From Pseudomonadota bacterium (GTDB lineage: Bacteria > Pseudomonadota > Gammaproteobacteria > Burkholderiales > Rhodocyclaceae): a stretch of 64,000 bases of DNA. The DNA lies in NCBI GenBank assembly GCA_018241665.1, contig JAFEDK010000029.1, forward strand, positions 79,175 through 143,174. The letters run 5' to 3'. The notes beneath the pieces were generated by a model that did no database searches, was not told where the DNA came from, and saw only the letters and a list, made by a program, of their open reading frames with translations. This document shows positions 3,593 to 31,080 of the stretch, piece by piece; within the stretch, counting starts at the first letter, position 1; each line of letters begins with the position of its first letter. Both the position numbers and the translations under genes were made by a program.

Positions 3593-3686
3593 AGCCTGGC
3601 GCGGCTTGCGGCGAAGCGGCCCGGCGGAGAACAATGGCGGGCTCGCCGATCGCCCCTTGCGTCGGCCGCCTCGACTAGGAGAAACG

Positions 3687-4004: not shown

Positions 4005-4014
4005 GAGGCCGGGC

Positions 4015-5292: not shown

Positions 5293-5368
5293 GATCAGCA
5301 GGGGTTCCGGGCGAGCGACAGTTTCTGTCGTACGCCCGTGTTTCAATCGGCACCATGAACGGCAACCC

Positions 5369-5454: not shown

Positions 5455-5483
5455 ACCGCCGAATCCATCCTCCGGAGACTTCC

Positions 5484-8400: not shown

Positions 8401-9023
8401 TCGAATCGCGCGAGGACGAAGAGCTGCGTTACCTGAGCAAGGCTACCGGCCTGCGCGTGGAGGACTGGCTGCGTGGCATCCGGACCACCGCTGATGGCAA
8501 GCGCGGCCGGGTGGTGCTGGAAAGCAGCGACGTGGTGAAGAGCGGGCACTACCAGCACCACCACCTGGTCCGCCACTGGGTCGCCCACCTGGCGACCCAC
8601 CTGTCCGGCGGGCCGCTGACCACGCTGGTGGTCAGCAAGGCCGGCAACGCGGAACTGGGGCCGCTGGAACCGAAGGAGGCCGCACGCCAGCTCGAGGCGC
8701 TGCTGGCGGCCTGGGTCGACGGCCAGCGTCGTCCGCTGCCGCTGGCGGCGAAGACCGCCTTCGCGTGGCTGAAGTACGCCCCCAGCGACGATTACGAGGC
8801 GCTGGACAAGGCCTGCAGGGTCGCGACGACGGCCTACGAAGGGGACGGCTACCAGAGCGACGGCGAGCTGGGTTCCAGTGCCTACCTGCAGCGGGCCTGG
8901 CCCAGCTTCGCGGCGCTGGTGGCGGACGGCGACTTCGCCCGGCTGGCCACCAGCCTGCTGCGCCCCCTGTACCTCGCCCCCTTTGCCGACAAGAAGAAAA
9001 CCGCTGACGGAGCCCAGGCATGA
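5484..9023 (+). CDS. recC: Exodeoxyribonuclease V gamma subunit RecC
   Basis: 1179 residues from a TTG start at 5484, preceded by GGAGA about 7 bp upstream; no ATG in frame suits the conserved N-terminus (GLMLVHGNHPEALRDLLV). The protein shows RecC family blocks such as LLVHSNGIAQWLRLALAED near residue 48, VHNPCEHFWADIV around 272-284, and the pseudo-helicase segment RAIPFRQVCLLGLNDGDYPR. RecC has no catalytic motifs of its own. In RecBCD it splits the duplex and scans the 3' strand for Chi. Its stop overlaps the recB start (ATGA). Length fits the family (about 1120-1180). Confidence 0.96.
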   Translation: MTANPLPTGLMLVHGNHPEALRDLLVTWSRRYPLAPLETETLLVHSNGIAQWLRLALAEDADGAFGGGCGIAAALDMSLPSRFLWQAYRAVLGFDAVPESSPFDKPLLVWRLMRLLPGVMAAPDYAPLRRFLASDADLRKRFQLAERLADLFDQYQVYRADWLAAWADGEDVLIRANGDRPPLPDEQRWQASLWRALLGDVAATGDGGALAGQGRAAVHEAFLRRVEAWPEEAGRPAGLPRRVMIFGISALPRQSLEVLAALARWTQVLMCVHNPCEHFWADIVADKDLLRATRNRQQRRNGMPAELSAENLHLHAHPLLAAWGKQGRDFIGLLDEHDSDAARAGYLQHFVDIRQRIDLFAPHGQARLLNQLQDDIRDLRPLAETQACWPAVASDDDSIRFHVAHSPQREVEILHDQLLAAFNADPTLRPRDVIVMVPDIDAYAPHIQAVFGLVDGKDPRFIPFSIADQGRRHHDPLVNAIDKLLGLPTSRVAVSDVLDLLEVPALRRRFGIAEDELPLLHRWIHGARVRWGLHAEHRQSLELPVALDGNSWLFGLRRMLLGYAVGSTGGAWQDIEPYDEIGGLDAALLGPLVKLLDRLEASWRVLATEATVSDWCLRLRQLLADFFDAEESGDTYTLQQLETALEAWQQACGQAGLTDPLPLAVVSEHWLAQLDEGSLSQRFFVGAVTFATLMPMRAIPFRQVCLLGLNDGDYPRTRVPMDFDLMGRDYRPGDRSRREDDRYLFLEALLSARERLLISWVGRSINDNTVRPPSVLVGQLRDHLAAGWKLAGAEPDGKDALLAALTVEHRLQPFNPDYFPADPQRGPLFTYAHEWRIADDRPAAGGVLPPLQRDEPLRLAELGGFLRDPVKQFFRQRLHVDFDMDDPASDDQEPFELDGLQRWSLWNELIGLQAAAVHAGEDRELALEEGLERLRRRGELPAAAFAELMAADLAKPMDGLFQRYEEGLARWPLESREDEELRYLSKATGLRVEDWLRGIRTTADGKRGRVVLESSDVVKSGHYQHHHLVRHWVAHLATHLSGGPLTTLVVSKAGNAELGPLEPKEAARQLEALLAAWVDGQRRPLPLAAKTAFAWLKYAPSDDYEALDKACRVATTAYEGDGYQSDGELGSSAYLQRAWPSFAALVADGDFARLATSLLRPLYLAPFADKKKTADGAQA

Positions 9024-12000
9024 GTCCGAATCCGATTTCCTCCCCGCCGGTGGACCTCGTCCCGCTGGCCTTTCCGCTGCGTGGCAGCCGTCTCATCGAG
9101 GCCAGCGCCGGCACCGGCAAGACCTTCACGATCGCGCTGCTGTACGTGCGCCTGGTGCTGGGCCACGGGCCCGACGAGGCCGCCTTCGGCCGCGAGCTGA
9201 CGCCGCCGGAGATCCTCGTCGTCACCTTCACCGACGCGGCCACCAAGGAGCTGCGCGACCGCATCCGTGCCCGCCTGACCGAGGCCGCCGGCTATTTCCT
9301 CGCCGATCCGGCTGGCCTGCCCGCCATCGCCCCCGGCAAGGATCCGCTCCACGACCTGCGCGCCGACTATCCGCCGGAAGCCTGGCCGGGCTGTGCGCGC
9401 AAGCTGCAGCTGGCCGCCGAATGGATGGACGAGGCCGCGGTGTCCACCATCCACGGCTGGTGCAACCGCATGCTGCGCGAGCACGCCTTCGACAGCGACA
9501 GCCTGTTCACCCAGACCCTCGAAACCAACCAGGACGAGCTGCTGGCCGAGGTGGTGCGCGACTACTGGCGCAGCTTCATGTATCCGCTGGATATCGATGC
9601 GGCGGCCGTGGTGCATGGCTGGTGGGCTTCGCCCGAAGCGCTGCAGGGCGAAGTGAAGCAGCTTCTGCTGCATGCCGACCTGCTGGACGAGGCGCTTGCC
9701 CCGGCCGTCTCGGTGGCCGCCGCCGAGGCGGAAAAGCAGCGCCAGCTCGGCCCGCTGAAAGCGCCGTGGGCAAAATGGGTGGATGAGCTGCGTGATCTGT
9801 TCGACGCGGCCCGCGACGCCAAGCAGGTGGACGGCCGCAAGCTGCGCAAGGACTACTGCGACGGCTGGCTGGCTGCGCTGGCTGCGTGGCGGGACGATCC
9901 GGACATGGTCTGGCCGGCGCTCAGTGATTCGGCGTGGAAGCGCCTGAGCCCTGACGGTCTGGCTGAAGCCTGGAAAGGAAATCCGGTGCCGGCGCACCCG
10001 GCGCTGGCCGCCATCTTCGCGCTGCCGGACCAGCTGGTGACGCTGCCCGATGCACGCGACGACGTGCTGTGCCACGCCGCCGGCTGGGTTGCCCAGCGTT
10101 TCGCCGCCGAGCAGGCCCGCCACGCCAAGATGGGCTTCAACGACCTTTTGACCCGCCTCGACGCGGCGCTGGCCGGCGCCAACGGCGCCCGCCTGGCCCA
10201 GGTGATCCGCGCGCAGTTTCCGGTGGCCCTGATCGACGAGTTCCAGGACACCGACGCGGTGCAGTACCGCATTTTCGACGCCGTCTATCGGGTTACGGAC
10301 AACGACGAGAGCACCGCGCTGATCCTCATCGGCGACCCCAAGCAGGCCATCTACGCCTTCCGCGGCGCCGACATCTACACCTATCTGGCCGCACGCGCCG
10401 CCACCACCGGCCGGCAGTACACGCTGCGGCGCAACTTCCGCTCGACCCACGCGATGGTGGCCGCCGCCAACCGCTGCTTCGCGCTGGCCGAGGAAAGGGA
10501 CAGCGGGGCCGGTGCCTTCCTGTTCCGCAGCGCGGCGGGCAACCCGGTGCCCTTCCTGCCGGCCGAGGCCAATGGCCGCGAGGACGTGCTGCAGGCCGAG
10601 GGGGCGGAGTTGCCGGCGCTGACCCTGTGGCGGCTGCCGCCGAGGGAAGAGGACAAGCCGCTCTCCAAAGGGCACTACGTCGCCGACATGGCCGCGGTGT
10701 GCGCCAGCGAAATGGTCCGCCTGCTCAACCTCGGCCAGCAGGGCCAGGCCGGCTTCTTCGGCAAGGGCGAGGCGCGCCCGCTGCGCCCGGCCCACATGGC
10801 GGTGCTGGTCAGCAACGGCGGCGAAGCCACGGCGATCCGCGATGCGCTGGCGGCACGCGGCGTGCGCAGCGTCTATCTGTCGGAAAAGGAGTCGGTGTTC
10901 CAGCGCCCGGAGGCGGTGGAGCTGCAGCACTGGCTGTCGGCCTGCGCCGAGCCGGACGACGGCCGCCTGCTGCGCGCCGCGCTGGCCACCCCGACGCTGG
11001 GCCTCGACTGGGCCGAGCTGGACGGACTCAACCGCGACGAGACCGCCTGGGACAAGCGCATCGACCAGTTCCGTGCCTACCGGGAGTGCTGGCGCAGCCA
11101 GGGCGTGCTGCCGATGCTGCGCCGTCTGCTCAACGACTTCCGCGTGCCGGCCCGCCTGCTGGCCGGTGGCGGGGCCGGGGAGCGCAGCCTCACCGACCTG
11201 CTGCACCTGGCCGAGCTCCTGCAGCAGGCCAGCCTGCTGCTCGACGGCGAACACGCGCTGATCCGCCACCTGGCCGAGCAGCGCCGGGAGGACAGCGTCG
11301 GTGGCGACACCCGCCAGGTGCGCCTCGAGAGCGATGCCGACCTGGTGCAGGTGGTGACCATCCACAAGTCCAAGGGGCTGGAGTATCCGCTGGTCTTCCT
11401 GCCCTTCGCATGTACCTTCCGCCCCGTCAAGGCGGATGACCTGCCCCTCAAGTGGCATGACGCCGACGGCCACCTGCAGCTGGCCCTGAACGGCGACGAC
11501 CCGGCGCAACTGGCCCTGGCCGACCGGGAGCGCCTCGGCGAGGACCTGCGCAAGCTCTACGTGGCGCTGACCCGTGCCCGCTACGCCACCTGGGTCGGGA
11601 CCGGGCCGCTGGACGGGCTGGGCCAGAGCGCCCTCGGCTACCTGCTCGGCGGCAGCCTGGACGGCGGGTTGGCCGCGCTGGCCGCCGGCGCCGGCATCAA
11701 GCTGAACGAAGAGCCGGAAGCCGACGATGGGGCCTACCAGGCCCGCGAGGCCGCCCTTGTCGAGGGCGCCGCCCGCCAGCCGCTGCGCGCCGTGCGCGAG
11801 CAGTGGTGGATCGCCAGCTACTCGGCGCTGCAGACCGCCGGCGAGCGGCAGGGGCCGGACACGCCGAAGGAGGACGTGCACCGGGAAACCTTGAAAACCC
11901 GCAGCGAGGCGCCGTCTCAGCCGGCCGCGAAAGGTGGCGGGATGCACGATTTTCCGCGTGGCGCGGCGGTCGGCACCTTCCTGCACGAGTTGTTCGAATG

Positions 12001-12679
12001 GGCCGCCAAGCAGGGCTTCGCCCGCGTTTCGGCGGCGCCGGGGCTGCTGCGCGACGTCGTTGCCCGGCGCTGCGCGGCGCGGGGCTGGCAACGCTGGATC
12101 GAGCCGCTGAGCGAGTGGATGCTGGGCTTCCTGCACCTGCCGCTGACCGACGGTGACAGGCCTCCGCTGACCCTCGCCGGCCTGCAGGTTTACGCTGCCG
12201 AGATGGAGTTCCTGGTCGCCGTGCACCATGTCGATCTGGCGGAGCTGGATACCCTGGTGTGCCGCCACACCCTCGGTGGCGCGGCGCGGCCGGCCCTCGA
12301 CAGGAACCAGCTCAACGGCATGCTGAAGGGCTTCATCGACCTGCTGGTGGAGCACGACGGGCGCTACTACGTGGTGGACTACAAGTCCAACCGCCTCGGC
12401 GACGACGACGCGGCCTACACCCCGGAAGTCATGCGCGAGGCGGTGCTGGCCGAGCGCTACGAGCTGCAGTACGTGCTCTACCTGCTGGCCCTGCACCGCC
12501 TGCTCAAGCTGCGCCTGCCGGACTACGACTACGACCGCCACGTGGGCGGCGCCCTCTACCTGTTCCTGCGTGGCAGCCATTCCGCCAGCCGGGGCATCCA
12601 CGCCGAGCGCCCGCCGCGGGCGCTGATCGAAACCCTCGACGCGCTGTTTGCCGGCGCCCGCCGCCAGGAGGCCGCATGA
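9020..12679 (+). CDS. recB: Exodeoxyribonuclease V beta subunit RecB (helicase-nuclease)
   Basis: 1219 residues; the start ATG overlaps the recC stop. An SF1A (UvrD-like) helicase is shown by Walker A EASAGTGKT (residues 27-35), the motif II region VALIDEFQDTD, motif III LIGDPKQAIYAFRGAD, and motifs V/VI (VTIHKSKGLEYPLVFLP, KLYVALTRARYATWVG). The C-terminal RecB nuclease is intact: VVDYKSNRLGDD includes the catalytic D1120 and K1122. This subunit is the 3'-5' motor and the only nuclease of the complex. It works on double-strand ends to start recombination repair at Chi and to degrade linear foreign DNA. The gene ends in a 4-bp overlap with recD. Confidence 0.97.
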   Translation: MSPNPISSPPVDLVPLAFPLRGSRLIEASAGTGKTFTIALLYVRLVLGHGPDEAAFGRELTPPEILVVTFTDAATKELRDRIRARLTEAAGYFLADPAGLPAIAPGKDPLHDLRADYPPEAWPGCARKLQLAAEWMDEAAVSTIHGWCNRMLREHAFDSDSLFTQTLETNQDELLAEVVRDYWRSFMYPLDIDAAAVVHGWWASPEALQGEVKQLLLHADLLDEALAPAVSVAAAEAEKQRQLGPLKAPWAKWVDELRDLFDAARDAKQVDGRKLRKDYCDGWLAALAAWRDDPDMVWPALSDSAWKRLSPDGLAEAWKGNPVPAHPALAAIFALPDQLVTLPDARDDVLCHAAGWVAQRFAAEQARHAKMGFNDLLTRLDAALAGANGARLAQVIRAQFPVALIDEFQDTDAVQYRIFDAVYRVTDNDESTALILIGDPKQAIYAFRGADIYTYLAARAATTGRQYTLRRNFRSTHAMVAAANRCFALAEERDSGAGAFLFRSAAGNPVPFLPAEANGREDVLQAEGAELPALTLWRLPPREEDKPLSKGHYVADMAAVCASEMVRLLNLGQQGQAGFFGKGEARPLRPAHMAVLVSNGGEATAIRDALAARGVRSVYLSEKESVFQRPEAVELQHWLSACAEPDDGRLLRAALATPTLGLDWAELDGLNRDETAWDKRIDQFRAYRECWRSQGVLPMLRRLLNDFRVPARLLAGGGAGERSLTDLLHLAELLQQASLLLDGEHALIRHLAEQRREDSVGGDTRQVRLESDADLVQVVTIHKSKGLEYPLVFLPFACTFRPVKADDLPLKWHDADGHLQLALNGDDPAQLALADRERLGEDLRKLYVALTRARYATWVGTGPLDGLGQSALGYLLGGSLDGGLAALAAGAGIKLNEEPEADDGAYQAREAALVEGAARQPLRAVREQWWIASYSALQTAGERQGPDTPKEDVHRETLKTRSEAPSQPAAKGGGMHDFPRGAAVGTFLHELFEWAAKQGFARVSAAPGLLRDVVARRCAARGWQRWIEPLSEWMLGFLHLPLTDGDRPPLTLAGLQVYAAEMEFLVAVHHVDLAELDTLVCRHTLGGAARPALDRNQLNGMLKGFIDLLVEHDGRYYVVDYKSNRLGDDDAAYTPEVMREAVLAERYELQYVLYLLALHRLLKLRLPDYDYDRHVGGALYLFLRGSHSASRGIHAERPPRALIETLDALFAGARRQEAA

Positions 12680-14733
12680 GTTTCCATTCCTACGACGATC
12701 CGGCCGCGATGAAGGCCCTGCTGGACCGCTGGGCCGAACAGGGCTGGCTGCGGGCGCTGGACGCGGCCTTTGCCGACTTCCTGCAGCGCGAGGCGCCGGA
12801 CGCGCCGCCGCTGCTGATCCTCGCCGCCGCGCTGGCGAGCCACCAGCTTGGCCGTGGACACGCCTGCCTGGATCTCGGCGACACGCTGCGCGATCCCGGC
12901 TTTGCGCTGTCCCTGCCCCCCGAGGGGGCGGCTGGCGCCGAAGGCGCGGCGCTGCCGCCGGCGCCGGCCGAAGTGCTCGATGGCCTGACGCTGGCGCACT
13001 GGGAGGTGGCGCTGGCGTTTCCCGCGCTGGTCGGTGAGGAGGCCGGCAATACGCCGCTGCTGCGCGTCGGCCGGCGGGTCTACCTGCGTCGCTACTGGCA
13101 GTACGAACGGGACGTGCAGGACGGCATCCGGCGCCGCCTGGGCGACCTGGCGGAACGCCAGGAGGCGCTGCCGCTGGATGCCCTGCGGGCGGCGCTGGAC
13201 GTGCTGTTCCCGCCGTCGCCGGGCGTGGCCGGGCCGGACTGGCAGAAGCTGGCCTGTGCATTGGCGGCGCGCAGCGCCTTCGCGATCGTCACCGGCGGCC
13301 CCGGCACCGGCAAGACGACCACGGTGGTGCGCCTGCTGGCGGTGCTGCAGGCGCTGGCGCTGGCCGAGCGGCCGGATCGCCCGCTGCGCATCCGCCTGGC
13401 GGCGCCGACCGGCAAGGCGGCGGCGCGCCTCAACGAATCCATCGCCGGCGCGGTGGCCAAGCTCAAGCTCGATGGCCTGCCGGCCGGCGAGCAGGTGCGG
13501 GCGGCGATCCCGGTGGCGGTGACGACCTTGCACCGCCTGCTCGGCAGCCGGCCGGACACCCGCCATTTCCGCCACCACGCCGGCAATCCGCTGCCCCTCG
13601 ACGTGCTGGTGGTGGACGAGGCGTCGATGGTGGACCTGGAGATGATGGCCGCGCTGCTCGCCGCGCTGCCGCCATCGGCGCGGCTGGTGCTGCTCGGCGA
13701 CAAGGACCAGCTGGCCTCGGTGGAGGCCGGCGCGGTGCTTGGCGAACTGTGCCGGCGCGCCCGCGAGGGGCATTACACGCCGGACAGCCGTGCCTGGCTG
13801 GAGGCGGCCACCGGCGAGAAGGTGGCGGACGAGCTGATCGACGCCGCCGGCACGCCGCTGGACCAGGCCGTCGCGATGCTGCGCCACAGCCACCGCTTCA
13901 GCGGTGACAGCGGCATCGGCCAGCTGGCGGCGGCGGTGAACGACGGCGCGGTGCAGCGCGTCGGCGAGGTGTTCGCCGACGGCTATGCCGACCTGGCGCG
14001 GATCGGGCTCGGCGGCGACGGGGAGGCCGCGCTGCGCCGGCTGGTGGTGGATGGCGACAATGGCGCGGCGCCCGCGGCGGATGGCGAGCGGCCCCGGGGC
14101 TACCGGCATTTCCTGCACGAGATGGCGGAACGGCGTCCGGCTGCCGGTGCGGCTCAGGCGGCGCTGGATGCCTGGGCGCTGCAGGTGCTCGCCGCCCATG
14201 GCCAGTTCCAGCTGCTGTGCGCGCTGCGCCGCGGTCGGTGGGGCGTGGAGGGGCTCAACCAGCGCATCGCCGGCTGGCTGCACGAGGCCGGGCTGATCCC
14301 GGCCCGGGAGGGCTGGTATGGCGGCCGGCCGGTGCTGGTGACGCGCAACGACTACGGCCTCGGCCTGATGAACGGCGACATCGGCATCACGCTGGCGTTG
14401 CCGCTGGCAGGTGGTGGCACCCAGCTGCGGGTGGCCTTCCCCAGCGGCGACGGCAGCCAGGGCGTCAAGTGGGTGCTGCCGAGCCGCCTGCAGGCCGTCG
14501 AGACGGTGTATGCGCTGACGGTGCACAAGTCCCAGGGCTCGGAATTCACCCACGCGGCGCTGGTGCTGCCCGACGGGCTCAACCCGATCCTGACCCGCGA
14601 GCTGGTTTACACCGGTATCACCCGTGCCAAGCGCTGGTTCACCCTGGCCGACGCGCCAGGTTCGAAGGTGCTGGAGCAGGCGGTGGCGCGACGGGTGCTG
14701 CGGGTCTCGGGGCTGCTGGACGGGATGGCGTGA
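12676..14733 (+). CDS. recD: Exodeoxyribonuclease V alpha subunit RecD (5'-3' helicase)
   Basis: 685 residues from ATG 12676, which overlaps the recB stop; longer upstream frames inside recB are ignored. The N-terminal RecB-binding domain covers about residues 1-190. The SF1B helicase core has Walker A GGPGTGKT (about 207-214), LRIRLAAPTGKAAARL (motif Ia), VLVVDEASMVDLEMM (motif II), LVLLGDKDQLASVEAG (motif III), and the C-terminal YALTVHKSQGSEFTHAALVLP and RELVYTGITRAKRWF (motifs V/VI). It is the faster motor on the 5' strand and restrains the nuclease until Chi. Overlapping recC, recB and recD genes imply coupled synthesis in equal amounts. Confidence 0.96.
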   Translation: MSFHSYDDPAAMKALLDRWAEQGWLRALDAAFADFLQREAPDAPPLLILAAALASHQLGRGHACLDLGDTLRDPGFALSLPPEGAAGAEGAALPPAPAEVLDGLTLAHWEVALAFPALVGEEAGNTPLLRVGRRVYLRRYWQYERDVQDGIRRRLGDLAERQEALPLDALRAALDVLFPPSPGVAGPDWQKLACALAARSAFAIVTGGPGTGKTTTVVRLLAVLQALALAERPDRPLRIRLAAPTGKAAARLNESIAGAVAKLKLDGLPAGEQVRAAIPVAVTTLHRLLGSRPDTRHFRHHAGNPLPLDVLVVDEASMVDLEMMAALLAALPPSARLVLLGDKDQLASVEAGAVLGELCRRAREGHYTPDSRAWLEAATGEKVADELIDAAGTPLDQAVAMLRHSHRFSGDSGIGQLAAAVNDGAVQRVGEVFADGYADLARIGLGGDGEAALRRLVVDGDNGAAPAADGERPRGYRHFLHEMAERRPAAGAAQAALDAWALQVLAAHGQFQLLCALRRGRWGVEGLNQRIAGWLHEAGLIPAREGWYGGRPVLVTRNDYGLGLMNGDIGITLALPLAGGGTQLRVAFPSGDGSQGVKWVLPSRLQAVETVYALTVHKSQGSEFTHAALVLPDGLNPILTRELVYTGITRAKRWFTLADAPGSKVLEQAVARRVLRVSGLLDGMA

Positions 14734-20747: not shown

Positions 20748-20977
20748 GGTCCGAGTATCGGATCTTTGCTGCCGATTGACCCGCTTTAGTCCCTGCCCGG
20801 TGTGAGGATATTGGCGCTTTTCCCCAGATTGGCCGTCGGTGGGACAGGCATCTCCCATTGCCTGTCGAGGGGGCAGAAGGGCGGGGCCGGGACGCCGCCG
20901 GCCGGGCTTTTTGTACGACATGGGTTGACGCATCACGCTGGTCAAATACGCCCATCGACCCTTCCAAGGAGAACGCG

Positions 20978-21415
20978 ATGAGCGCCAAACGCAACAATGC
21001 CCTGTCGTCCCGCGAACTGCTCGCCAAGCTCGGAATCGACGAGAGCGCCGGCGAGGAAAGCCTGCTCTTCGACGACGAGCCCCTCGACTCCCCCGTCGAC
21101 GATCTGGCCGCCGCCCTGCGTGAGCGTTTCCAGGGCCTCAAGCGCCGCCAGGCCTTCCAGCCGGGCGACGTGGTGCTGTGGAAGCCGGGCCTGAAGAACC
21201 GCCGCTGGCCCGCTTACGGCAAGCCGGCGATCGTCGTCGAGGTGCTCGACCCGCCGATCTTCGACTCGGAGAAGGATTCCGGCAGCGCCTATTTCCGCGA
21301 GCCGCTGGACCTTGCGGTCGGGGTGTTCATCGAGGACGGGCCGCACCGGGGGGATTTCGTGGTGTGGCATTTCGACAGCCGCCGCCTGCAAACCTGGACG
21401 TCCGAGGAGATCTGA
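20978..21415 (+). CDS. Conserved small protein of unknown function, paired with the AAA ATPase
   Basis: 145 residues from ATG 20978 with AAGGAG at 20966-20971. I do not recognise a named family. Residues 1-60 look helical and acidic (ESLLFDDEPLDSPVDDLAAALRERFQGL). Residues 60-145 look like a small beta-barrel of SH3/Tudor type (FQPGDVVLWKPGLKN, GKPAIVVEVLDPPI, VGVFIEDGPHRGDFVVWHFDSRRL). The stop is 2 bp before the start of the AAA gene, so the two are made together and the small protein may be its adaptor or substrate-recognition partner. The 230 bp upstream separates it from the divergent cyclase gene. Confidence 0.8.
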   Translation: MSAKRNNALSSRELLAKLGIDESAGEESLLFDDEPLDSPVDDLAAALRERFQGLKRRQAFQPGDVVLWKPGLKNRRWPAYGKPAIVVEVLDPPIFDSEKDSGSAYFREPLDLAVGVFIEDGPHRGDFVVWHFDSRRLQTWTSEEI

Positions 21416-21417
21416 TC

Positions 21418-23682
21418 ATGCTCACCATCAAGAAGGCCCCCCGCAAGCCCCGTCCGTCCAGGCGCGCCCCGTGGCGCACCGACTTCCGCGACATTCCGGC
21501 GGAGCAGCGGCGAGCCGGCCGCTACGCGCTGCAACTGGTGGCCGGCCGGCCCGCGCTGCTGTCGCGCCTGCAGGATGCGGATTTCCTCAGCGCCCTGTGG
21601 GTGCTGTGCCTGCCGCTGATCGAACCGGCGGTGCTGGGCCAGTTGCAGGCCGAGTGGCGCAGCAAACGCAGCGTCCGCGCCGACGAGGACGACGAAGAGG
21701 AGTGGGACGACGATCTGCCGGACTTCCTGAGTACGCCGAGCCGTCGCGAGCTGCGCGGGCAGCCGGGCCGCCATATCCGGGCCTACCTGGCCGAGCTGCT
21801 TGCCGAGGTGCCCGATGCGCTGCTGCAGCGCCTCGCGGAGCAGGATGGCTCCGCCCCGACCCATCCGGGCGTGGCGGTGATCGCCGCCAGCACGGCCCTC
21901 GATCCGGTGGAGACGGCGCTGCTGGATTTCGTCGAGAAGCGGGTGCAGACCCCGGCCTTCAGCGACTTCCTGCGGGAAAGCCAGAGTTGCGGGGCGCGGG
22001 ACAACTTTGCCTGCGTGGCGGCGGCCCTCGGGCTGGAGCCGGCGGCGATCAAGAACGCCCTCGGGCGTGCCGGCACGCTGCGCAAGCTGCAACTGCTGCG
22101 CGTCAACGCCCGCGATCGCACCGATCTGGAGGATTTCCTGGCGCCGGCGGAACTGCTCGGCGAGATCCTGGTGCTCGCCCCGGAGTCCGAGGCCGCGCTG
22201 TTCGAGCTGATCGTCGAGCCGGCGCCGGCATCCCGGTGGACGCCGGCGGATTTCCCGCACCTGGAAAAGGAGGCCGCCCGCCTGTGCAGTGTGCTGGGCC
22301 GTGCCGCCGCCGATGGCGCGGTCGGCGTCAATGGGCTGCTGTACGGTGCGCCGGGGACCGGAAAGACGGAGTTCGCGCAGGCCATCGCGACGGCGGCCGG
22401 CCTGAAGGCCTTCCGGGTCAAGACCGCCGACGAGGAGGGGGCGGGGCTGTCGCGCGAGGGGCGTCTCGGGGCCTACCTGTTGCTGCAGCGCGTGCTGCGC
22501 GGGCGGCGCGACTGCGTGGTGATCTTCGACGAGGTCGAGGACGCCTTCGGCGGCGGCATCAACGCGCTGCTGGCCCTGCTCGGCGGCCGCTCCGGCGCGT
22601 CCGACAGCGACAAGGGCTGGATGAACCGCATCCTGGAAGAAAACCCGCTGCCGGCACTGTGGATCACCAACGACGCGGAGAGCATGGATCCGGCCTTCCT
22701 GCGCCGTTTCCTGTTGCCGGTGGCCTTCACCACGCCGCCGAAGAGCGTGCGCCGCCGCATGGCGGAGAGCCATCTGGGCGACACCGGGCTGCCGGCCGCG
22801 CTGCTCGATGAACTGGCCGCCGATGAGGCCTTGCTGCCGGCCCAGCTCGGTGCCGCGCGGCGGCTCCTCGACCTGCAGCCGGACATCGATCCGGTCGAGG
22901 CCGTACGCGGTGGCGTCGCGGCCAGCCGGCGCCTGCTGCAGGGCAGTCCGGTGGCGCGCCAGCGCCAGAGCGCGACGGCCTTCGACGCGGCCTATCTCAA
23001 CCTGGCCGGTGGCATCGCGCCGGGGCGCATCGTCCAGGCCCTCGAGCGCAACGGCCATGGCCGCCTTTGCTTCTACGGCCCGCCGGGCACCGGCAAGACC
23101 GAGTTCGCCCATGTACTGGCCGATGCGCTCGGGCGCGAACTGATCGTGCGCAGCAGCTCCGACCTGGTGTCGAAATACGTCGGCGAGACGGAACAGAACC
23201 TGGCCGCGCTCTTCCGCGACATCGACGCGGAGCGCAGCGTGCTGTTCCTCGACGAGGTGGACAGCTTCCTGCGCGACCGCCGCCAGGCCCGCCACAGCTG
23301 GGAAACCACCCAGGTGAATGAGCTCCTGCAGCAGATCGAGCGTTTCCCCGGCATCTTCATCGCCGCCACCAACCTGATGGACGGGCTCGATGGGGCGGCG
23401 CTGCGCCGCTTCGATTTCAAGCTGCACTTCCGGCCGCTGACCGCCGCCCAGCGGCTCAGCCTGTTTGCCCGCGAGGTCTTCGGCGACGCGGCGCAAACGG
23501 ATGCCATCCCGCCGCTGCTGGCCCGCAAGCTGCACAGCCTGGAACTGCTCACGCCGGGCGACTTCGCCAACGTCGTGCGGCAGCGCAATCTGCTGGGCGA
23601 AGAGCTGCCCGCTGAAGAGTTCCTGCGCCGGCTGGTGGGCGAGTGCCGATGGAAGGAGCGCAGCGGGGCCGTGGCGGCCTGA
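21418..23682 (+). CDS. Tandem AAA+ ATPase (two AAA modules)
   Basis: 754 residues from ATG 21418, directly after the 145-aa gene. Residues 1-300 are helical with a very acidic patch near 87-102 (ADEDDEEEWDDDLPD). First AAA module: Walker A GAPGTGKT at 310-317 and Walker B VVIFDEVED near 367-375, then NPLPALWITNDAESMDPAFLRRF. Second AAA module: Walker A GPPGTGKT at 554-561, SSSDLVSKYVGETEQNLAALF, Walker B VLFLDEVDSF near 608-617, and sensor/arginine-finger region FIAATNLMDGLDGAALRRFDFKLHF. The second module resembles the proteasomal/FtsH-like classic AAA clade; no protease domain or membrane segment is present. A remodelling role is likely; the target is unknown. Transcribed with the gene before it and probably with the three after it. 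Confidence 0.85.
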   Translation: MLTIKKAPRKPRPSRRAPWRTDFRDIPAEQRRAGRYALQLVAGRPALLSRLQDADFLSALWVLCLPLIEPAVLGQLQAEWRSKRSVRADEDDEEEWDDDLPDFLSTPSRRELRGQPGRHIRAYLAELLAEVPDALLQRLAEQDGSAPTHPGVAVIAASTALDPVETALLDFVEKRVQTPAFSDFLRESQSCGARDNFACVAAALGLEPAAIKNALGRAGTLRKLQLLRVNARDRTDLEDFLAPAELLGEILVLAPESEAALFELIVEPAPASRWTPADFPHLEKEAARLCSVLGRAAADGAVGVNGLLYGAPGTGKTEFAQAIATAAGLKAFRVKTADEEGAGLSREGRLGAYLLLQRVLRGRRDCVVIFDEVEDAFGGGINALLALLGGRSGASDSDKGWMNRILEENPLPALWITNDAESMDPAFLRRFLLPVAFTTPPKSVRRRMAESHLGDTGLPAALLDELAADEALLPAQLGAARRLLDLQPDIDPVEAVRGGVAASRRLLQGSPVARQRQSATAFDAAYLNLAGGIAPGRIVQALERNGHGRLCFYGPPGTGKTEFAHVLADALGRELIVRSSSDLVSKYVGETEQNLAALFRDIDAERSVLFLDEVDSFLRDRRQARHSWETTQVNELLQQIERFPGIFIAATNLMDGLDGAALRRFDFKLHFRPLTAAQRLSLFAREVFGDAAQTDAIPPLLARKLHSLELLTPGDFANVVRQRNLLGEELPAEEFLRRLVGECRWKERSGAVAA

Positions 23683-23718
23683 GCCGCCTGGGGACGCGCT
23701 GACGGTAAACTGCCCGCC

Positions 23719-24972
23719 ATGAACTTCTTCTTCACGTTGCTGGACGACAGCCTGCGTCCCCGCGGCAGCCGCGATCCACTGGGGATCGAGCTGCTGTGGT
23801 CGGGGGTCGGGCGCCGGCTGGTGGGCAATCTGACCACCGTGACCACCCACCTGGACAATTTCATCCTCGCGCTGGTGGGCTTCCACCTGTGCGGAGAGGA
23901 GGGGCAGGCCGCACCTGCGTGGCCGCGCTTCGAGCGTTTCGAGCAGATGTGCGGGCGGGCTCGCGTGCGTCGTGGCCTGCCGGCGGTCATTGGCATACGG
24001 CGGATCCAGGGCAGTCCCGAGCTGCCGGTTGTGCTGGGCGCTTCCCGCGCGGCAAGGATTCTCGACGACCAGCGTCAGGCTGGCCTGTGGGGGCTGTATT
24101 CCACCGCGCTGGCGGCGTCCGGCCTCACCGATGCGCAGCGCCGGCCGACACCGCGCGGCGCAGAGGTCGTGCGCAGCCTGCTTGATGTGGCGCCCGATGC
24201 GGCCTGGCGCCTCGCCGTCGACGATGGGGCCAGCCAGCTCGATGCCGCCGGGATGGCCCGCGCGGAACAATGGGTCGTGGCCATACTGGGTGGCGGGGCC
24301 GGGCGGGCGGCGCTGGCCGACTGCCTGCTGTCGGGGGGCGGTGCGCCGGCGCGCTGGCAGGGCGAGGTGTATGAACAGGGCCGTGCCATCCTGCGCGAGG
24401 GGGCCGGCAGGCCATCGGCGCGCAGGTTTCTGGCCTGGCTGCAGGCCCGGGCAAGGGATGCCGGGCTGCGCGACTTCGCCGGCCTCGTGCAGCGTTTCGA
24501 CGAGGAGCTGGTCCTGGCGGAGCGGGTTTTCGGGTGGCTGCTCGGCTGTCACGGCCAGCCGCTCGAGTGCTGCGAGGAAGCGCTGGCCGGCCTGCGGGGC
24601 TGGCCGTTCGGGGATGCGTCGCCAGCGGATTTCACGGCCCATGTCGTCAATGGCGAGTGGCATCGTCGTGCCGCGGGCCTGGGCGGCTTTGCCACGGCGA
24701 TGGCGCAGCAGCGCTGGCGGGAAGCCATCGAGCGGCTGCTTGAATACCACGCGACGATCGCCCGGGGGCGGGGCGGTTCGCCGTGGTGCTATCTGGAGGA
24801 AGGGCAGGTGAAGGTGGTGATGAACGCCAGTCCGGCCACCCTGCCGACCGCCACGGAGATCGCCGCCGAGCGCTTTGCCGGCTGGATGGACGGACGCAGC
24901 AAGGGCTTCTTTCTCGGCGCCTTCCTGGACATCCTGCAGCAGGCCGGCGGCGGCCGGGAGGGGCAGGGATGA
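23719..24972 (+). CDS. Unknown protein, first gene of the PLD/SNF2 module
   Basis: 417 residues from ATG 23719. I cannot assign a family. The N-terminus has a distinctive block (FFTLLDDSLRPRGSRDPLGI, then ELLWSGVGRRLVGNLTTVTT and HLDNFILALVGFHLC), which looks like a conserved core; the rest is mainly helical, with no transmembrane segment, no Walker motif and no recognisable nuclease motif. It follows the AAA gene by 36 bp with no visible terminator and ends in an ATGA overlap with the PLD gene, so its translation is coupled to the nuclease. A role as the recognition or scaffold subunit is an inference from context only. Confidence 0.8.
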   Translation: MNFFFTLLDDSLRPRGSRDPLGIELLWSGVGRRLVGNLTTVTTHLDNFILALVGFHLCGEEGQAAPAWPRFERFEQMCGRARVRRGLPAVIGIRRIQGSPELPVVLGASRAARILDDQRQAGLWGLYSTALAASGLTDAQRRPTPRGAEVVRSLLDVAPDAAWRLAVDDGASQLDAAGMARAEQWVVAILGGGAGRAALADCLLSGGGAPARWQGEVYEQGRAILREGAGRPSARRFLAWLQARARDAGLRDFAGLVQRFDEELVLAERVFGWLLGCHGQPLECCEEALAGLRGWPFGDASPADFTAHVVNGEWHRRAAGLGGFATAMAQQRWREAIERLLEYHATIARGRGGSPWCYLEEGQVKVVMNASPATLPTATEIAAERFAGWMDGRSKGFFLGAFLDILQQAGGGREGQG

Positions 24973-26996
24973 GGCCGGCGGTCAGCCAGTGGGGGATGCT
25001 CAAGGATGCGCTGCGTGAGGCCATCGAGGGGCTGCCTGGTTTCCGGGTCAGCCATGCGCTTTTCACCACCTATGCCTTCGAGCCGGAGTTTTTCGAGACG
25101 GCGGTCCTGCCGCTGCTGTTGCCGGACGGCGGCGAGGGCTTGTCCCTGCATGCGGGGCTGCGCCGCCTGCAGATGGAAGCCCTGCTGCGGGATGCGCCGA
25201 TTGACTGCGATGTCTATTTCGATGCGCGCGTGGTGGTGCCCGGCACCCCCTTGCTGCCGTATGCAATGCTGCCGGTGCGCCTGGGCGACGAGTTCCACGC
25301 CAAGATCATCCTGCTGCGCCTGCAGGATGCGGCGGGGCGGGTGCGCTGCCTTCTCGGTGCGGGCTCGGCCAACCTGACCCAGGCGGGCTGGTGGGAAAAC
25401 ATCGAGGCCTGGTATTTCGCGCCGCCTTTCGACCCGGCCCTCCCCCCGGCCGGCCTGCTCCCCGGGCTGCAGCACTTGTTCGCCTTCCTGGCCGGGCGGA
25501 GCCGGCAGGGGCCGGCGACGGCGACGGCGGAACTGCGTGCGCTTCTTGAGGCCGCCGATGCCGCGGATCCGCAGGTGGGCGAGGCCGCGTTCGGCGTGTT
25601 TACTCCGGATGGGCCGCGCTTTTTCGACTGGCTGGCCGGGCAACGGGCGCTGCGTGGCTGGGGCGGCGACGGGGAGGCGCGGCTGGAAGTGGTTTCGCCG
25701 TATTTCGCCGAGCGGGGGCATGCCGAACTGGTGCGCGAGCTGCTGGCAGCCGCGGGCGCCGCCGGGGTGGACCTGTGGTTGCCGGAGGACCCCTGGCAGG
25801 CCGGCGGGACGGCTGCGCTGATCGAGGTGGAGCGTTATACCGAGCTGACGAAGGTGGCCGGCCTGCGCTGGTGCAGCTTCGCCGACAGCGGCCTGGCGGC
25901 CAGCCGGAAGAAGGAGGGCGTCCCGCGTTTCCTCCATGCCAAGCTGATCCGCCAGCCGGGTCGCTACTGTTTCATGGGTTCGGTCAATTTCAGCAACAAG
26001 GCCTGCAAGTCCAACTTCGAAGCGGGTTTCCTGTTCGCCGATGGCGGTGCTGCGTGGCTGCAGCCGGCGGCACTGCCGCCCACGCGCTTCCTGCTACCGG
26101 CGCAGCAGGCCTGCCATGCCGGTATTGATGAGGGGGCTCTGGAGCTCGGGGCGCTGTTCGACTGGCGCACACGGCAACTGGCCATCAAGCTGCTCCGCGA
26201 TGCAGACCGGCAGGCGTGGTCGGACTGCCGCGTGAGCCTGGTCGACCTGCCGGGGACGGACTTCGTGCTTCCGGCAACGTTGAGCCTGTCCGGCGACGAG
26301 CCGCTGTACCGGCTGCTGCAGACTTGTCCGTGGTTGCGGCTGCGCTTCGAGCATGGCGCGGAGACGCTTGCCTGGGTGCAGCAGCAGGGGCTCGAGTACC
26401 GTCCGCCACCGGCTGATCTGCGGCCCGACGCCTGGCGGATTCTCGAGATGTGGCGCGCCCTGGGTGATGGGGCGCGGGGCTCCCGGCCAGGCGATTTCGA
26501 ACCCCTGGAGGTCATGCTGAGGGGGCGCGCTGACGACGGGGAGGCGATGCCGTACGCCGAGCCCGAGCAGGATCTGTTTGCCGCGATGGCGGCGGTGCAT
26601 GGCTGTTTCTATCTGTTGCGGCGGCGCCTGAAGGTGGAGCGGGAGCGGGGCAGCACGGCCCGTTGTGACTACTATCTGGCCGCGCCACGGCCGGATTCAT
26701 TGCTGAATCTGCTCGAGCGTATCGAGGCGCCGCCTGAAGGACGGTCCATCGATGCCGTCGCTGCCTGGGTGATGCTGCTGTGGGTCGAGCAGATCTGTAC
26801 CGACCATTCCGACCTGGCGACCGCGCGGGCTTTGCGCGAGCGGACCCGGGCGCAGCTCGATGCACGCCTCACGCAGCCGCCGCTCGCCGGCCTCGACCGG
26901 CAGTGGCTGGCATGGGCGGAGCGCATGTTCCTCTGTGAGCCGGGCGGGGAGAGCCGCGTGGCCCGTCAGTTCACGTCCGGGGAGGCCGGCAGGTGA
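24969..26996 (+). CDS. Phospholipase D-family protein with two HKD motifs (candidate nuclease)
   Basis: 675 residues; ATG 24969 overlaps the previous stop. Two HKD motifs of the PLD superfamily are complete: H110-A-K112 with G132-S133-A-N135 (EFHAKIILLRL and GAGSANLTQAG), and H323-A-K325 with G337-S338-V-N340 (FLHAKLIRQPG and MGSVNFSNKACKSNFEAGF). In this superfamily the paired motifs build one active site that hydrolyses phosphodiesters; members in helicase operons are usually DNA/RNA nucleases. The C-terminal 300 residues are of unknown fold. No signal peptide or membrane helix is seen, so it should act in the cytosol. It ends in a GTGA overlap with the SNF2 gene, which ties the nuclease and helicase together. 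Confidence 0.87.
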   Translation: MRPAVSQWGMLKDALREAIEGLPGFRVSHALFTTYAFEPEFFETAVLPLLLPDGGEGLSLHAGLRRLQMEALLRDAPIDCDVYFDARVVVPGTPLLPYAMLPVRLGDEFHAKIILLRLQDAAGRVRCLLGAGSANLTQAGWWENIEAWYFAPPFDPALPPAGLLPGLQHLFAFLAGRSRQGPATATAELRALLEAADAADPQVGEAAFGVFTPDGPRFFDWLAGQRALRGWGGDGEARLEVVSPYFAERGHAELVRELLAAAGAAGVDLWLPEDPWQAGGTAALIEVERYTELTKVAGLRWCSFADSGLAASRKKEGVPRFLHAKLIRQPGRYCFMGSVNFSNKACKSNFEAGFLFADGGAAWLQPAALPPTRFLLPAQQACHAGIDEGALELGALFDWRTRQLAIKLLRDADRQAWSDCRVSLVDLPGTDFVLPATLSLSGDEPLYRLLQTCPWLRLRFEHGAETLAWVQQQGLEYRPPPADLRPDAWRILEMWRALGDGARGSRPGDFEPLEVMLRGRADDGEAMPYAEPEQDLFAAMAAVHGCFYLLRRRLKVERERGSTARCDYYLAAPRPDSLLNLLERIEAPPEGRSIDAVAAWVMLLWVEQICTDHSDLATARALRERTRAQLDARLTQPPLAGLDRQWLAWAERMFLCEPGGESRVARQFTSGEAGR

Positions 26997-29900
26997 GTTC
27001 CGTCATTTATCCCGGGCAGCGGCAATGGTCCCGTGACGGTGCCGCTGCGCTGCTCGACATGTCCGGCCAGCTGGCGGACTTCAAGGCGACCGGCGACCGC
27101 CAGCTCGATGCAGCGGTGGCGCTGCACCGCATGCTGCTGAAAGAAGGCTGCGCCTATCTGGCCGATGAGGTCGGGATGGGCAAGACCTATGTCGCGCTGG
27201 CGGTGGTGGCGTTGTTCCGCCATCTGCAGCCCGGCTTCCGGGTTCTCTACCTGGCCCCGTCGCAGAACGTCCTGCGCAAATGGCACGAGCGGGAACTGCC
27301 GGCCTTCATCCGCGGCAACGTCCGGCAGCCGGACCTGCGTGTGCGCGGGCCGGGCGGTCTGGCGCCGGCGGCCAGCGTGGCCTGTCCGCGGGTGGATGAA
27401 TGGGCGCGCGCTGCGCTGACCCATCCCGCCGCGCTGGATGTGTTCCTGCCGCTGTCGGCCCTGAGTTTCCATCTCAGTGGCAGTGCGCCTGCGGACTGGG
27501 CGCGGCGGGTGACGGAACTGGCGGACAGTGTGGGTGCGCACGTCGGCGAGGATCTGTCGGCACTCGAGAATAAGGATGAGTTCAAGGCGCTGGCGGCCAG
27601 CCTGGTCAATCGTGTGATCCCCCGTTACGACCTGGTGGTGATCGACGAGGCGCACCTGTTGAAGGGCGGGGCCGGGGCGTCGGCATCCGACCGGGCGCGC
27701 TTCCTGGCCCGCGTCCTGGGCGCCCCGGGCTTTGCCGGACAGCGGCGTTTCGGCGGCGCCCTGCTGCTTTCGGGAACTCCCTTCGACCGGGACTTGAGGC
27801 AACTTGCGCGCCAGTTCGAGCTGTTCGCGCCGCTCGAGCAGTCCGAGCCGTCATTCCCGCCCCATCGGTGCATTCGGGCGCTCGCTGCGCAGCGGGAGGC
27901 CGGCGCCACATGGGATCAGGTCCAGCGCGGCCTCAGACCCTACATGGTGCGGCGCGTGCAGAAACTGGACATTGGTGGCCGGAGCCTGAGCCGCAACCAG
28001 TATCGCCGGGAGTGGCGCGCCGAGGCCGGCATCAGCCTCGCTGACGACAGCAGCCCGGAGGCCCTGCGCCAGCGTCTGTTCACGGCAGTCGTCCAGAAGC
28101 GCCTGATCGAGCACCTGGATGGCGAGAACGAGGGGCGTTTTCCGCTGGCGATGTTCTCCTCGTGGGAAGCCTATGCGCTGCCCCGCCCGGCGGGGCGTGG
28201 GCAGTCTGAATCTGCCGCCAGGCCGGCGGATGGCGAGGATGAGGCGGGCCAGCCCCTGCCGGGCGGCGAGGTGCTGGACGTGGGCAAGGACGGTGTGGCC
28301 GCGCCGGACATGCGTGCCGTCGATGGTGCGCTGATGGAGGATCTGGTTGGCAGCTACCGGGAGGTCTTCGGCACGGAGCCTCCACACCCGAAGCTGGAGC
28401 GGGAGGCGCAGCGCCTCGGCCGCGAGGCCTTTGCTGAGGGGGCCAAGCAGCTGGTGTTCGTGCGTCGCCTGAAGAGCGTCGATGACCTGTATGCGCGCCT
28501 CAACCAGGCTTACGACAGCTGGCTCGGTGATTATCTGCGGCAGGAAGGGATGCCTGGTGCGCCGGCCGCCTTGCTGGCGGCAAGACGGGCGGCGGCGCGT
28601 GGTGTGGCGGATCCCGCCGGGCTTGTCGATACGCCGGCCGGCGCAGGGGTGGAGAACGACAACGAGGCGGAGCTGCCGCCCCGCGGCGACACGCTGTTCA
28701 GCTGGTTCTTTCGCGGCACGCTGGATGCCGCCGGTGAGCAGTTCGTCCGTACCCACGACCTGCCGGCCCCCCGTCTGTTGCGCGAGCGCCTGCGCGATCC
28801 GGCGCGGTTCGAGGCCATCATCGGCGAACTGGACTGGCGCGGTTTCGTGATGATGCGTTGCCCTGCGCTGCCCGAGGTGCCGTGGCCGGAGGTGGCCGCG
28901 CGGGCGGCGAGCGTGCGCGGGGCGGCCAGTGCGCTGGGGCGCTATCGTCGCCTGCAGCTGGCCTGGGTGGACTGTCTGGTGGCGCGCCTGCCGGCAGCGG
29001 AGGCGCGGTGCTTTCTTCCATTGCGGGAACACCTGTTGAGCCTCCAGCTGAATACCGCCGCGGTCGAGGCCGAGCGGATGGATGCGGGGCAGGCCGAGAG
29101 CTTGCTGGAGATGCCCACGCTCGGCCTGGCCCTGTATCGCAAGGGTTTCGGCCCGGACGTCTTGCCGGCCTGGGAAAAGGCCTGGGTGCAGGTGTGGGCG
29201 TGCCGGGATCAGGCCGATCGGGCGACGGCGGCAGCAGCGGCGGCGAGCCTGCGGGAGCTGGACCTGCAGCGGGAGATCCTGTTCGCGCTGTTGCGCCTGG
29301 ACCATCCTTTCATCGACCTGTACCTCGGCTGGCTGCGCTGCTGGCGGGATGATGCGCGGGCTGCTGCCAGTGCGCTGGTAGAACGGGTCGTCGCCGTCTG
29401 CGCTCGGCCGGCCGGGCAGTTTGGCAGCGCGTCGATCCTGCGTAGCCTGGCCGAGGCCTGGACGCAGATCGCCAAGACCAACTTCGCCGAGCTCCTGACG
29501 GGAAGCGCGCGGCTGGAGCGCTCGGGCTGGCGCAGCTACATCCAGCAGCAACTGAGTCCCTTCGAGCCGGTAGAGTGGGCCAGCGGCCAGAATACCGGCG
29601 CCCGCAGCGCCATCGCACGGCGTTTCCGCATGCCCGGTTATCCGATGGTGCTGGTGGCAACCAGTGTGTTGCAGGAGGGGGAGGACCTGCACGTGTGCTG
29701 CGACCGGGTGACCCATTTCGGGATCTCCGGCAGTCCGATCGGTATCGAGCAGAAGAACGGGCGGGTCGATCGCATCGGCTCCCGCGCCCAGCGCCGCCTG
29801 CTCGGCGGCCTTGGCGTCGATGAGGCCGGGATCCAGGTGCGTTTCCCGCATCTGGCGGAAAGCCTGGAGTGGTACCAGATCCGTGATCTGTCCCAGAGCA

Positions 29901-30892
29901 TCAACGACTACCTGCTGTCCCTGCACCAGGTGGGCACGCGGATCAACCAGGAGGAGACGAGTCTTGCCGGCACGATGGCCGATGGCCATCCGATCCCGGC
30001 CTTGCCGACCGCCCCCCTGGACTCGCCTTTTGAGCCGCAGCTGGAGGAGATCACGGGCGGCGTGGCGGTCGCTGAGGTTCAGCAGTGCTTTGACGCAGCG
30101 GAGCACATCCTCGAGCATGCCAATGCGTTGCTGGCCGAGATCGCCGCGGAAAGCGGCTTCGTGGCAATGCCGGGCCGTCCTGACCGTTACCACCATCCGC
30201 TCCGCATGGCGCAGCTGAGCCTGCAGCCGGCGCACATGACCGGGGAGCTGACGGTTGTCGCCTCACGGCGCCTGTTGGGCGATGAGCTGCCGGACTGGAT
30301 GGCCGCGGGCCATCTGGCGGACGGACAGCCGGATCTGGATGCGATCCGCGTGCTGGTCGCCGATCCGCGCCATCGTCACATGCTGCGCCGCGGTGACGAC
30401 GGGCTGGAACTGCACGTCGAGGCCGCCTGCTTTGCCAGAGGCGAGGCGGAGCTGTCCCGCGACGAACTACGCGACCTTCTCGGGCGGATCGGCATGAGCA
30501 CCGATTACACGCCACCGGTGACAGCGTCCGATGCCCTGCTGGGCGTGCTGCGGGACTGCATGAGGCTGGATGGCGGGGCGGATCTCGAGTGGGCGCCCGG
30601 TGCGGATGCTGCGCGCCAGTCCGTAAGCTGCCGGCGCGTGCCGATTCAGCTGGAATTGTGGCAGTCGTGGGTGGTGGCCAGCCGGATCGTCGAGGCTGAT
30701 CCGGCGCCGCAGCCGGCCAACGTGCGCTGGCGCACCCTGAACCGCAATGGCACCCAGGGTGGCCCGGATTTCTTCCTGGCATCGAATGGACAGATCCACG
30801 CCCGGCTGACGCATCCAGTGGCCGATCTTGGGGCGGCGGAGCTGTGCTGCATGCTGCGGGAACTCGCCGCGGCGACGGGGAATGGGGGCTAG
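26993..30892 (+). CDS. SNF2-type DEAH helicase/translocase
   Basis: 1299 residues from a GTG start at 26993 that overlaps the PLD stop. SF2/SNF2 motifs: motif I LADEVGMGKTYVALA (Walker A GMGKT at 61-65); motif Ia RVLYLAPSQNVLRKW; motif II VVIDEAHLLKGG (DEAH 218-221); motif III LLLSGTPFDRD; C-terminal motif V VATSVLQEGEDLHVC (about 885-899) and motif VI GIEQKNGRVDRIGSRAQRR (about 916-934). A large insert of about 500 residues lies between the two RecA-like lobes, and about 350 residues follow motif VI. SNF2-type motors in bacterial defence systems (DrmD of DISARM, DpdE, ZorD) move along duplex DNA. Coupling to a PLD nuclease suggests translocation-linked cleavage. Specific substrate unknown. 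Confidence 0.88.
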   Translation: MSSVIYPGQRQWSRDGAAALLDMSGQLADFKATGDRQLDAAVALHRMLLKEGCAYLADEVGMGKTYVALAVVALFRHLQPGFRVLYLAPSQNVLRKWHERELPAFIRGNVRQPDLRVRGPGGLAPAASVACPRVDEWARAALTHPAALDVFLPLSALSFHLSGSAPADWARRVTELADSVGAHVGEDLSALENKDEFKALAASLVNRVIPRYDLVVIDEAHLLKGGAGASASDRARFLARVLGAPGFAGQRRFGGALLLSGTPFDRDLRQLARQFELFAPLEQSEPSFPPHRCIRALAAQREAGATWDQVQRGLRPYMVRRVQKLDIGGRSLSRNQYRREWRAEAGISLADDSSPEALRQRLFTAVVQKRLIEHLDGENEGRFPLAMFSSWEAYALPRPAGRGQSESAARPADGEDEAGQPLPGGEVLDVGKDGVAAPDMRAVDGALMEDLVGSYREVFGTEPPHPKLEREAQRLGREAFAEGAKQLVFVRRLKSVDDLYARLNQAYDSWLGDYLRQEGMPGAPAALLAARRAAARGVADPAGLVDTPAGAGVENDNEAELPPRGDTLFSWFFRGTLDAAGEQFVRTHDLPAPRLLRERLRDPARFEAIIGELDWRGFVMMRCPALPEVPWPEVAARAASVRGAASALGRYRRLQLAWVDCLVARLPAAEARCFLPLREHLLSLQLNTAAVEAERMDAGQAESLLEMPTLGLALYRKGFGPDVLPAWEKAWVQVWACRDQADRATAAAAAASLRELDLQREILFALLRLDHPFIDLYLGWLRCWRDDARAAASALVERVVAVCARPAGQFGSASILRSLAEAWTQIAKTNFAELLTGSARLERSGWRSYIQQQLSPFEPVEWASGQNTGARSAIARRFRMPGYPMVLVATSVLQEGEDLHVCCDRVTHFGISGSPIGIEQKNGRVDRIGSRAQRRLLGGLGVDEAGIQVRFPHLAESLEWYQIRDLSQSINDYLLSLHQVGTRINQEETSLAGTMADGHPIPALPTAPLDSPFEPQLEEITGGVAVAEVQQCFDAAEHILEHANALLAEIAAESGFVAMPGRPDRYHHPLRMAQLSLQPAHMTGELTVVASRRLLGDELPDWMAAGHLADGQPDLDAIRVLVADPRHRHMLRRGDDGLELHVEAACFARGEAELSRDELRDLLGRIGMSTDYTPPVTASDALLGVLRDCMRLDGGADLEWAPGADAARQSVSCRRVPIQLELWQSWVVASRIVEADPAPQPANVRWRTLNRNGTQGGPDFFLASNGQIHARLTHPVADLGAAELCCMLRELAAATGNGG

Positions 30893-30969
30893 TGGACGAG
30901 ATCAGTGCCGCGGAGTGCTACTGGATGGTGTCGGAGGCGGGGATTTCGGCGTGCCGGATGGGTAAACGA

Positions 30970-30995
30970 AATCAGGCGCCCGGAGGCGCCTGATT
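30970..30995 (-). terminator. Strong hairpin terminator of tRNA-Val (may also serve the helicase operon)
   Basis: Perfect 11-bp inverted repeat AATCAGGCGCC / GGCGCCTGATT around the tetraloop CGGA. Read on the minus strand it lies just after the tRNA 3' end and is followed by TTCGTTT; on the plus strand it lies 78 bp after the helicase stop. Confidence 0.8.
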
Positions 30996-31005
30996 TACTG
31001 AATTC

Positions 31006-31080
31006 TGGTGGGCGGTACTGGGATCGAACCAGTGGCTTCCACCGTGTGAAGGTGGCACTCTACCGCTGAGTTAACCGCCC
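31006..31080 (-). tRNA. tRNA-Val, anticodon CAC, CCA end encoded
   Basis: Read on the minus strand it folds as a cloverleaf: acceptor GGGCGGT / ACCGCCC, D-loop with CAGCGGTAGAG, anticodon stem CCACC / GGTGG around loop TTCACAC (anticodon CAC, valine codon GTG), T-arm ACTGG-TTCGATC-CCAGT, discriminator A. The CCA tail is encoded (TGG at 31006-31008 on the plus strand). Confidence 0.96.

Follow-up and report, generated by a model that had tools for sequence, protein, structure and literature searches.

Several described bacterial systems bring together a protein of the PLD superfamily and an SNF2-type motor. DISARM has the PLD nuclease DrmC and the SNF2 helicase DrmD, Dpd has the PLD protein DpdK and the SNF2 protein DpdE, and in the PADLOC entry ZacABC the gene order is A-PLD-SNF2. 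PLD enzymes cut phosphodiester bonds via a phosphohistidine, and SNF2 proteins move along double-stranded DNA. A Type-2 form of BREX-related systems, which are centred on DUF499 and contain an N6-methyltransferase, carries an SNF2 helicase and an HKD nuclease as effector pair (PMC12839542). The closest entry to the locus described here is PDC-M27, a candidate in the PADLOC catalogue; most PDC systems still await validation (PMC12988326). We found no paper on PDC-M27 and none containing 'ZacABC' or related phrases, and no description of the trio treated here was among the matches listed. In a 64,000-nt stretch of contig JAFEDK010000029.1 (the window, whose positions serve as coordinates throughout), an original prediction had marked three coupled genes, here named A, B and C, as a candidate undescribed defence system that detects and cuts invading nucleic acid. 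Our analyses showed that the gene set is real and coherent; it is, however, an enlarged mobile variant of the catalogued candidate PDC-M27 and not undescribed. We regard it as moderately probable that five genes at this locus form a putative mobile anti-invader cassette, in which a nuclease–motor complex would be joined by an AAA regulator.

Results

On the + strand of the window, three contiguous genes stand in the order of PDC-M27: A (23719–24972, 417 aa, PDC-M27A-like), B (24969–26996, 675 aa, PLD superfamily, PDC-M27B-like) and C (26993–30892, 1299 aa, SNF2-type motor, PDC-M27C-like). As predicted, they are coupled by short overlaps, ATGA between A and B and GTGA between B and C. The assignment was made by profile E-values, without PADLOC's own cut-offs: C matched PDC-M27C in two stretches (E=2.1e-65, 219.6 bits), A matched PDC-M27A with E=1.1e-10, the best stretch comprising only residues 328–384, and B matched PDC-M27B with E=2.8e-14 over residues 11–151 of 675. 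The match of the trio to this candidate is clear for C and partial for A and B. In contrast to PDC-M27, C of the window has about 400 aa more, and a small protein and a tandem AAA ATPase are added.

These two upstream genes had escaped the original prediction, which treated the recurrent A-B-C trio as the whole unit. The small protein (20978–21415, +, 145 aa) precedes the tandem AAA ATPase (21418–23682, +, 754 aa) with a gap of 2 nt, and 36 nt separate the latter from A, so that five co-directional genes follow one another. In a relative of the same genus (G016), the corresponding locus (L020) is 90.8% identical to window 33566–30962 and 81.5% identical to 20819–19606. Only 28 bp part these two flank-homologous blocks, and window 20820–30961 is missing there. 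The missing segment of 10.1 kb, with ends known to about 30 bp, holds exactly the five genes; in G016 neither A (search of 40 relatives) nor the AAA ATPase, P0002 (search of 23 genus genomes), had a match. Both an insertion in the source genome and a clean loss in G016 fit this picture. Either way, the five genes behave as one unit, present or absent as one segment.

Next to the segment lies a tRNA-Val(CAC) gene (31006–31080, −), its 3' end about 44 bp from the segment end, which was found in eight of the nine relatives' loci scanned. We detected no integrase inside the five-gene unit, no second copy of a piece of the tRNA-Val within the window and no flanking direct repeats, the longest word common to the ends 20791–20850 and 30931–31010 measuring 6 bp. 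A promoter scan of the + strand ahead of the operon gave no hit, and base composition does not set the segment apart from its surroundings. Very long antisense frames occur in the window, e.g., 21289–24750 on the − strand; they are probably not genes, since the window has about 70% GC.

Both sets of PLD catalytic residues are complete in B, the SNF2 motor motifs are retained in C, and the AAA protein has two ATPase sites. In the predicted model, residues 1–388 of B adopt a Tdp1-like double PLD fold. Its first catalytic half (H110, K112, N135; 25296–25373, +) and its second (H323, K325, S338, N340; 25935–25988, +) are invariant in 15 aligned B proteins, where twelve invariant columns (eleven besides M1) hold both sets. 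Two complete HKD motifs had been predicted; their HxK parts stand at H110/K112 and H323/K325, but the canonical aspartate is absent from both motifs in the window copy, with R117 and P330 in its place. The conserved pattern is hence HxK...N, present twice in one fold, which assigns B to the PLD superfamily. Tdp1 and the restriction endonuclease 2c1l (BfiI) share the PLD fold with B, and Tdp1 also has its two halves in one chain. Unlike these enzymes, B sits in a bacterial three- to five-gene context, and its last 290 aa are extra. A PDB sequence search with five-row B and C profiles gave no match; neither did a single-sequence search of plasmids with B, although profiles later did recognise plasmid B proteins.

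For C, the description as an SNF2/DEAH motor held throughout. The protein features a Walker A motif (D-E-V-G-M-G-K-T, residues 58–65; 27164–27187, +), a DEAH box (residues 218–221; 27644–27655, +), S-G-T-P at residues 260–263, where relatives often have A-T-P, motif V and motif VI (29747–29779, +), together with a large inter-lobe insert and a C-terminal extension. In a tree of 23 C rows, the window groups with L003–L006 (100/100) within a ten-row set that includes the PDC-M27-type C (100/99), with long branches leaving deeper placements unsure. In two Burkholderia relatives (L004, L005), similarity to C fades after about residue 1030–1040 and the frame stops early, so that the last 260 residues of the window C are absent there. 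The C frame of L018 is shorter too, with further open frames after it.

A carries the motif S-R-D-P-L-G (residues 17–22; 23767–23784, +), part of a block that the original prediction had already singled out. It is unchanged across the window and four relatives that are 54–58% identical, and remained so on adding a fifth relative at 25% identity. The A model is mostly helical and found no Foldseek match at E<=0.001; A had no Pfam match either, and sequence searches of plasmids and viral contigs with A returned nothing. The A and ZacA profiles align over a 33-residue stretch that includes R-D-x-L-G, without reaching significance (P 0.025), and we rejected the assignment of A to DUF6361, the ZacA family (PF19888), on this ground and for want of a Pfam match. 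For the gene that takes A's place in Pantoea and Desulfosarcina, one alignment with A gave P 2.8e-4 and a second 0.068, and the A profile failed to find it even at E<=10. For these reasons, we do not claim homology.

The window B and C match ZacB and ZacC, but membership in ZacABC was rejected since A has no ZacA or DUF6361 match. In line with the original prediction, the five genes include no methyltransferase, no DrmA or DrmB and no base-modification gene, a result that applies to the segment and not to the rest of the genome, which this search did not cover. DISARM was thus rejected, its DrmC and DrmD matches lying far under the NCBIfam cut-offs, and so was Dpd, for which a DpdA-type, 7-deazaguanine or other base-modification gene would be expected and DpdE scored 51 bits against a cut-off of 500. 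Mokosh was rejected as C had no MkoA match and B no MkoB match; MkoA was listed only for the AAA protein (E 0.0006, best stretch 12 residues). In contrast to the BREX-related systems, the five genes contain neither DUF499 nor an N6-methyltransferase.

To follow the trio in other bacteria, we ran iterated profile searches from five-row window-type alignments over the open frames of fetched loci, which had been obtained by searches with A, C or PDC-M27A. A was recognised in 12 rows (window, L003–L006, L012–L018), 11 of them distinct because L017 and L018 carry an identical A, and B and C came next in the same order and on the same strand in 12/12. Homologues hence do co-occur, a point on which the original prediction could have failed, and the recurrence of homologous A-B-C triples in other bacteria puts the trio beyond chance. 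Near full-length PDC-M27 trios on plasmids of Vibrio nigripulchritudo and Rhodoferax antarcticus were reached from the window C and confirmed with PADLOC profiles; window-family profiles reach both, and the window A and B are linked by profile to L013, L015 and L016. With no A recognised even at E<=10, B and C occur in G013, which belongs to the genus of the source organism, and likewise on plasmids of Pantoea, Desulfosarcina, Fuscovulum and Leisingera, where in each case a 395–461-aa gene fills A's place; on a Paracoccus plasmid, C and part of B lie where the examined stretch ends. Counting the source genome, A was present in 2/40 relatives and PDC-M27A in 2/299 phylum genomes. PDC-M27B was found in 7/299, near full length in G461, with 1.7e-11 in the source genome and as short weak matches in the other five. 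Relatives of the trio also lie on chromosomal and phage-labelled contigs.

AAA proteins remodel proteins, and in both AAA domains of the tandem protein of the window we identified, by eye, a Walker A and a Walker B motif. Its best profile in both PADLOC and NCBIfam is IetA/IteA, and its best PDB chains are VCP-like ATPases. It has matches at 1e-30 in 10/23 genus genomes, source genome included. Relatives of the small protein, 61–80% identical, directly precede the AAA gene in G007, G009, G010, G013 and G018; the small protein itself had no NCBIfam or PADLOC match and a single Pfam match (E 0.12) below the cut-off. Rows related to the full unit occur elsewhere. In G013, five genes follow one another on one strand: the small gene, the AAA gene (74% identical), a gene of 456 aa that occupies A's place but is not recognised as A, B (21% identical) and C. 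In MT835507, an unannotated phage-labelled gut record, Sir2, WYL and a divergent AAA gene (35%) come before the trio. In a plasmid census of AAA relatives, 18 of 20 matching records were examined, sister Variovorax plasmids H43 and H44 being left out; among the 18, the Aureibacter protein resembles an injection-system ATPase and not a true AAA relative. Reading extended 10 kb to either side, except for Rhodoferax, where it covered 9 kb around the helicase, and went further for Fuscovulum, Leisingera and Desulfosarcina. A B/C-type pair was near the AAA relative in 6/18 records (Rhodoferax, Pantoea, Desulfosarcina, Fuscovulum, Leisingera, Paracoccus), a count that leans in favour of such pairing because B/C of Fuscovulum and Leisingera were seen only on reading further.

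Other genes accompany the AAA module. A 347–348-aa gene, WYL regulator-like by eye, lies divergently upstream of it in L041 and L043, and on a Sphaerotilus plasmid (L049), genes annotated as BREX-type PglZ and BrxD come before WYL, a P0002-like AAA gene and Sir2. Close to the trio or to the AAA gene, DUF2779 proteins recur; they are annotated in L016 (3052–4554) and L056 (7795–9279) and recognised by eye in L018 (4142–5656) and L045 (9399–10913).

Defence genes are found close to several trios. In G350 (L012, 1986–10532 and 10286–15506), HmaA- and HmaB-type genes, with a CBASS cyclase and a Cap15 effector between them, directly adjoin a divergent PDC-M27-like trio. In Burkholderia L005, a NERD-UvrD gene lies 1 kb upstream, separated from the trio by one other gene; on the Vibrio plasmid, RT_UG17 is located 4.3 kb downstream, and ZorA/ZorB-like genes follow the trio in MT835507. 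About 0.8 kb ahead of the Paucibacter trio (L006) lie a UvrD helicase and an MZB/DruE-like fragment. By layout alone, these resemble ARMADA, whose helicase carries a RelE domain (PMC12458937). These five trios, and not L003, L004, L013, L016, L017, L018 or the window itself, made up the scan.

A pair of PD-(D/E)XK and UvrD genes (AddAB-like) also recurs by PLD-SNF2 trios (L052/L064, L055/L065, L053, L006, L089); it is annotated in L052 and L055 and Pfam-tested in L006, whereas in L053 and the ZacABC locus L089 it was recognised by eye alone. In L093 (G611, 3267–14052), the genes ahead of a ZacB/PDC-M27C-like pair are one of 434 aa with a D-P-L-G motif, one that looks actin/Hsp70-like by eye and another SNF2-like gene.

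Discussion

A rival reading is a DNA repair or end-cleaning complex, in which a Tdp1-like phosphodiesterase, an SNF2 translocase and a Cdc48-like AAA protein would clear protein-blocked or damaged ends, spread by transfer yet serving the host. Fold similarity, however, shows no function. Nor does a host repair pathway usually occur so patchily, sit in a segment next to a tRNA gene that a close relative lacks, have copies on plasmids and phage contigs or, at some loci, adjoin defence genes. We therefore consider a repair role quite unlikely. The several plasmid-borne relatives could point to exclusion of plasmids or other elements, or to an element-stabilising function, instead of phage defence; relatives also lie on chromosomal and phage-labelled contigs, though, and the scanned neighbours include phage-defence families, which makes such a function very unlikely in our view.

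Several observations weigh against an anti-invader cassette. The trio type is rare, A being found by profile in 2/369 class genomes, source genome included. The PDC-M27A and PDC-M27B matches cover only part of the profiles, and the active-site stretches of the B model have low confidence. Neighbours were picked by eye at five trio loci only, without a control rate, and those of the L003 trio look, again by eye, like housekeeping genes. No trio lies within reach of the AAA module in 12/18 plasmid records or, inside the genus, in G010 (7.1 kb) and G018 (2.3 kb to the contig end). Conversely, no P0002 match lies near the trios of L003, L005, L006, L012, L013, L015, L017 and L018, the upstream stretch of L004 being too short to judge. 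The cases of G010, G018 and L003 would be expected if two independent cassettes, a defence-associated module of small protein and AAA ATPase and the PDC-M27 trio, were neighbours by chance. Against this stand the one segment shared by both when the window is compared with G016 and their repeated nearness in G013, Rhodoferax, Pantoea, Desulfosarcina, Fuscovulum, Leisingera, Paracoccus and MT835507; chance neighbourhood hence appears unlikely to us.

We thus return to the mobile anti-invader cassette. The idea of a system that detects and cuts invaders is supported in part, for a unit that is larger than the trio and whose core trio is already catalogued as a candidate. The gene unit, the catalytic residues and the fold of B, taken with the known activities of the families, lead us to propose an A-B-C motor–nuclease complex under AAA control. 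C might track along or remodel invading DNA, A could act as an adaptor or recognition subunit joining B and C, and B may break or process phosphodiester bonds in the engaged DNA. The AAA protein and its small partner would regulate or remodel the trio, by loading, releasing or silencing it. As the segment encodes no methyltransferase, self and non-self would be told apart by the state of the DNA and not by a mark made by the cassette; candidate states are ends, damage, and replication or packaging forms. We may further speculate that clearance of DNA–protein crosslinks was turned to immunity, with Tdp1-like B, SNF2 and Cdc48-like AAA proteins attacking protein-bound or protein-primed invader DNA and A serving as adaptor in a broader A-PLD-SNF2 superfamily to which ZacABC would also belong, but to this idea we give the least credence of all.

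With this work, a catalogue entry for a defence candidate becomes a delimited unit of five genes, for which a site naturally without the unit is known. The unit also offers a natural module swap, in G013, and clear catalytic residues. If it is active, PLD-SNF2 pairs would constitute a broad defence class that operates without DrmA/DrmB or a modification gene of its own, which would raise the question of how PLD-SNF2 machines spare their host.
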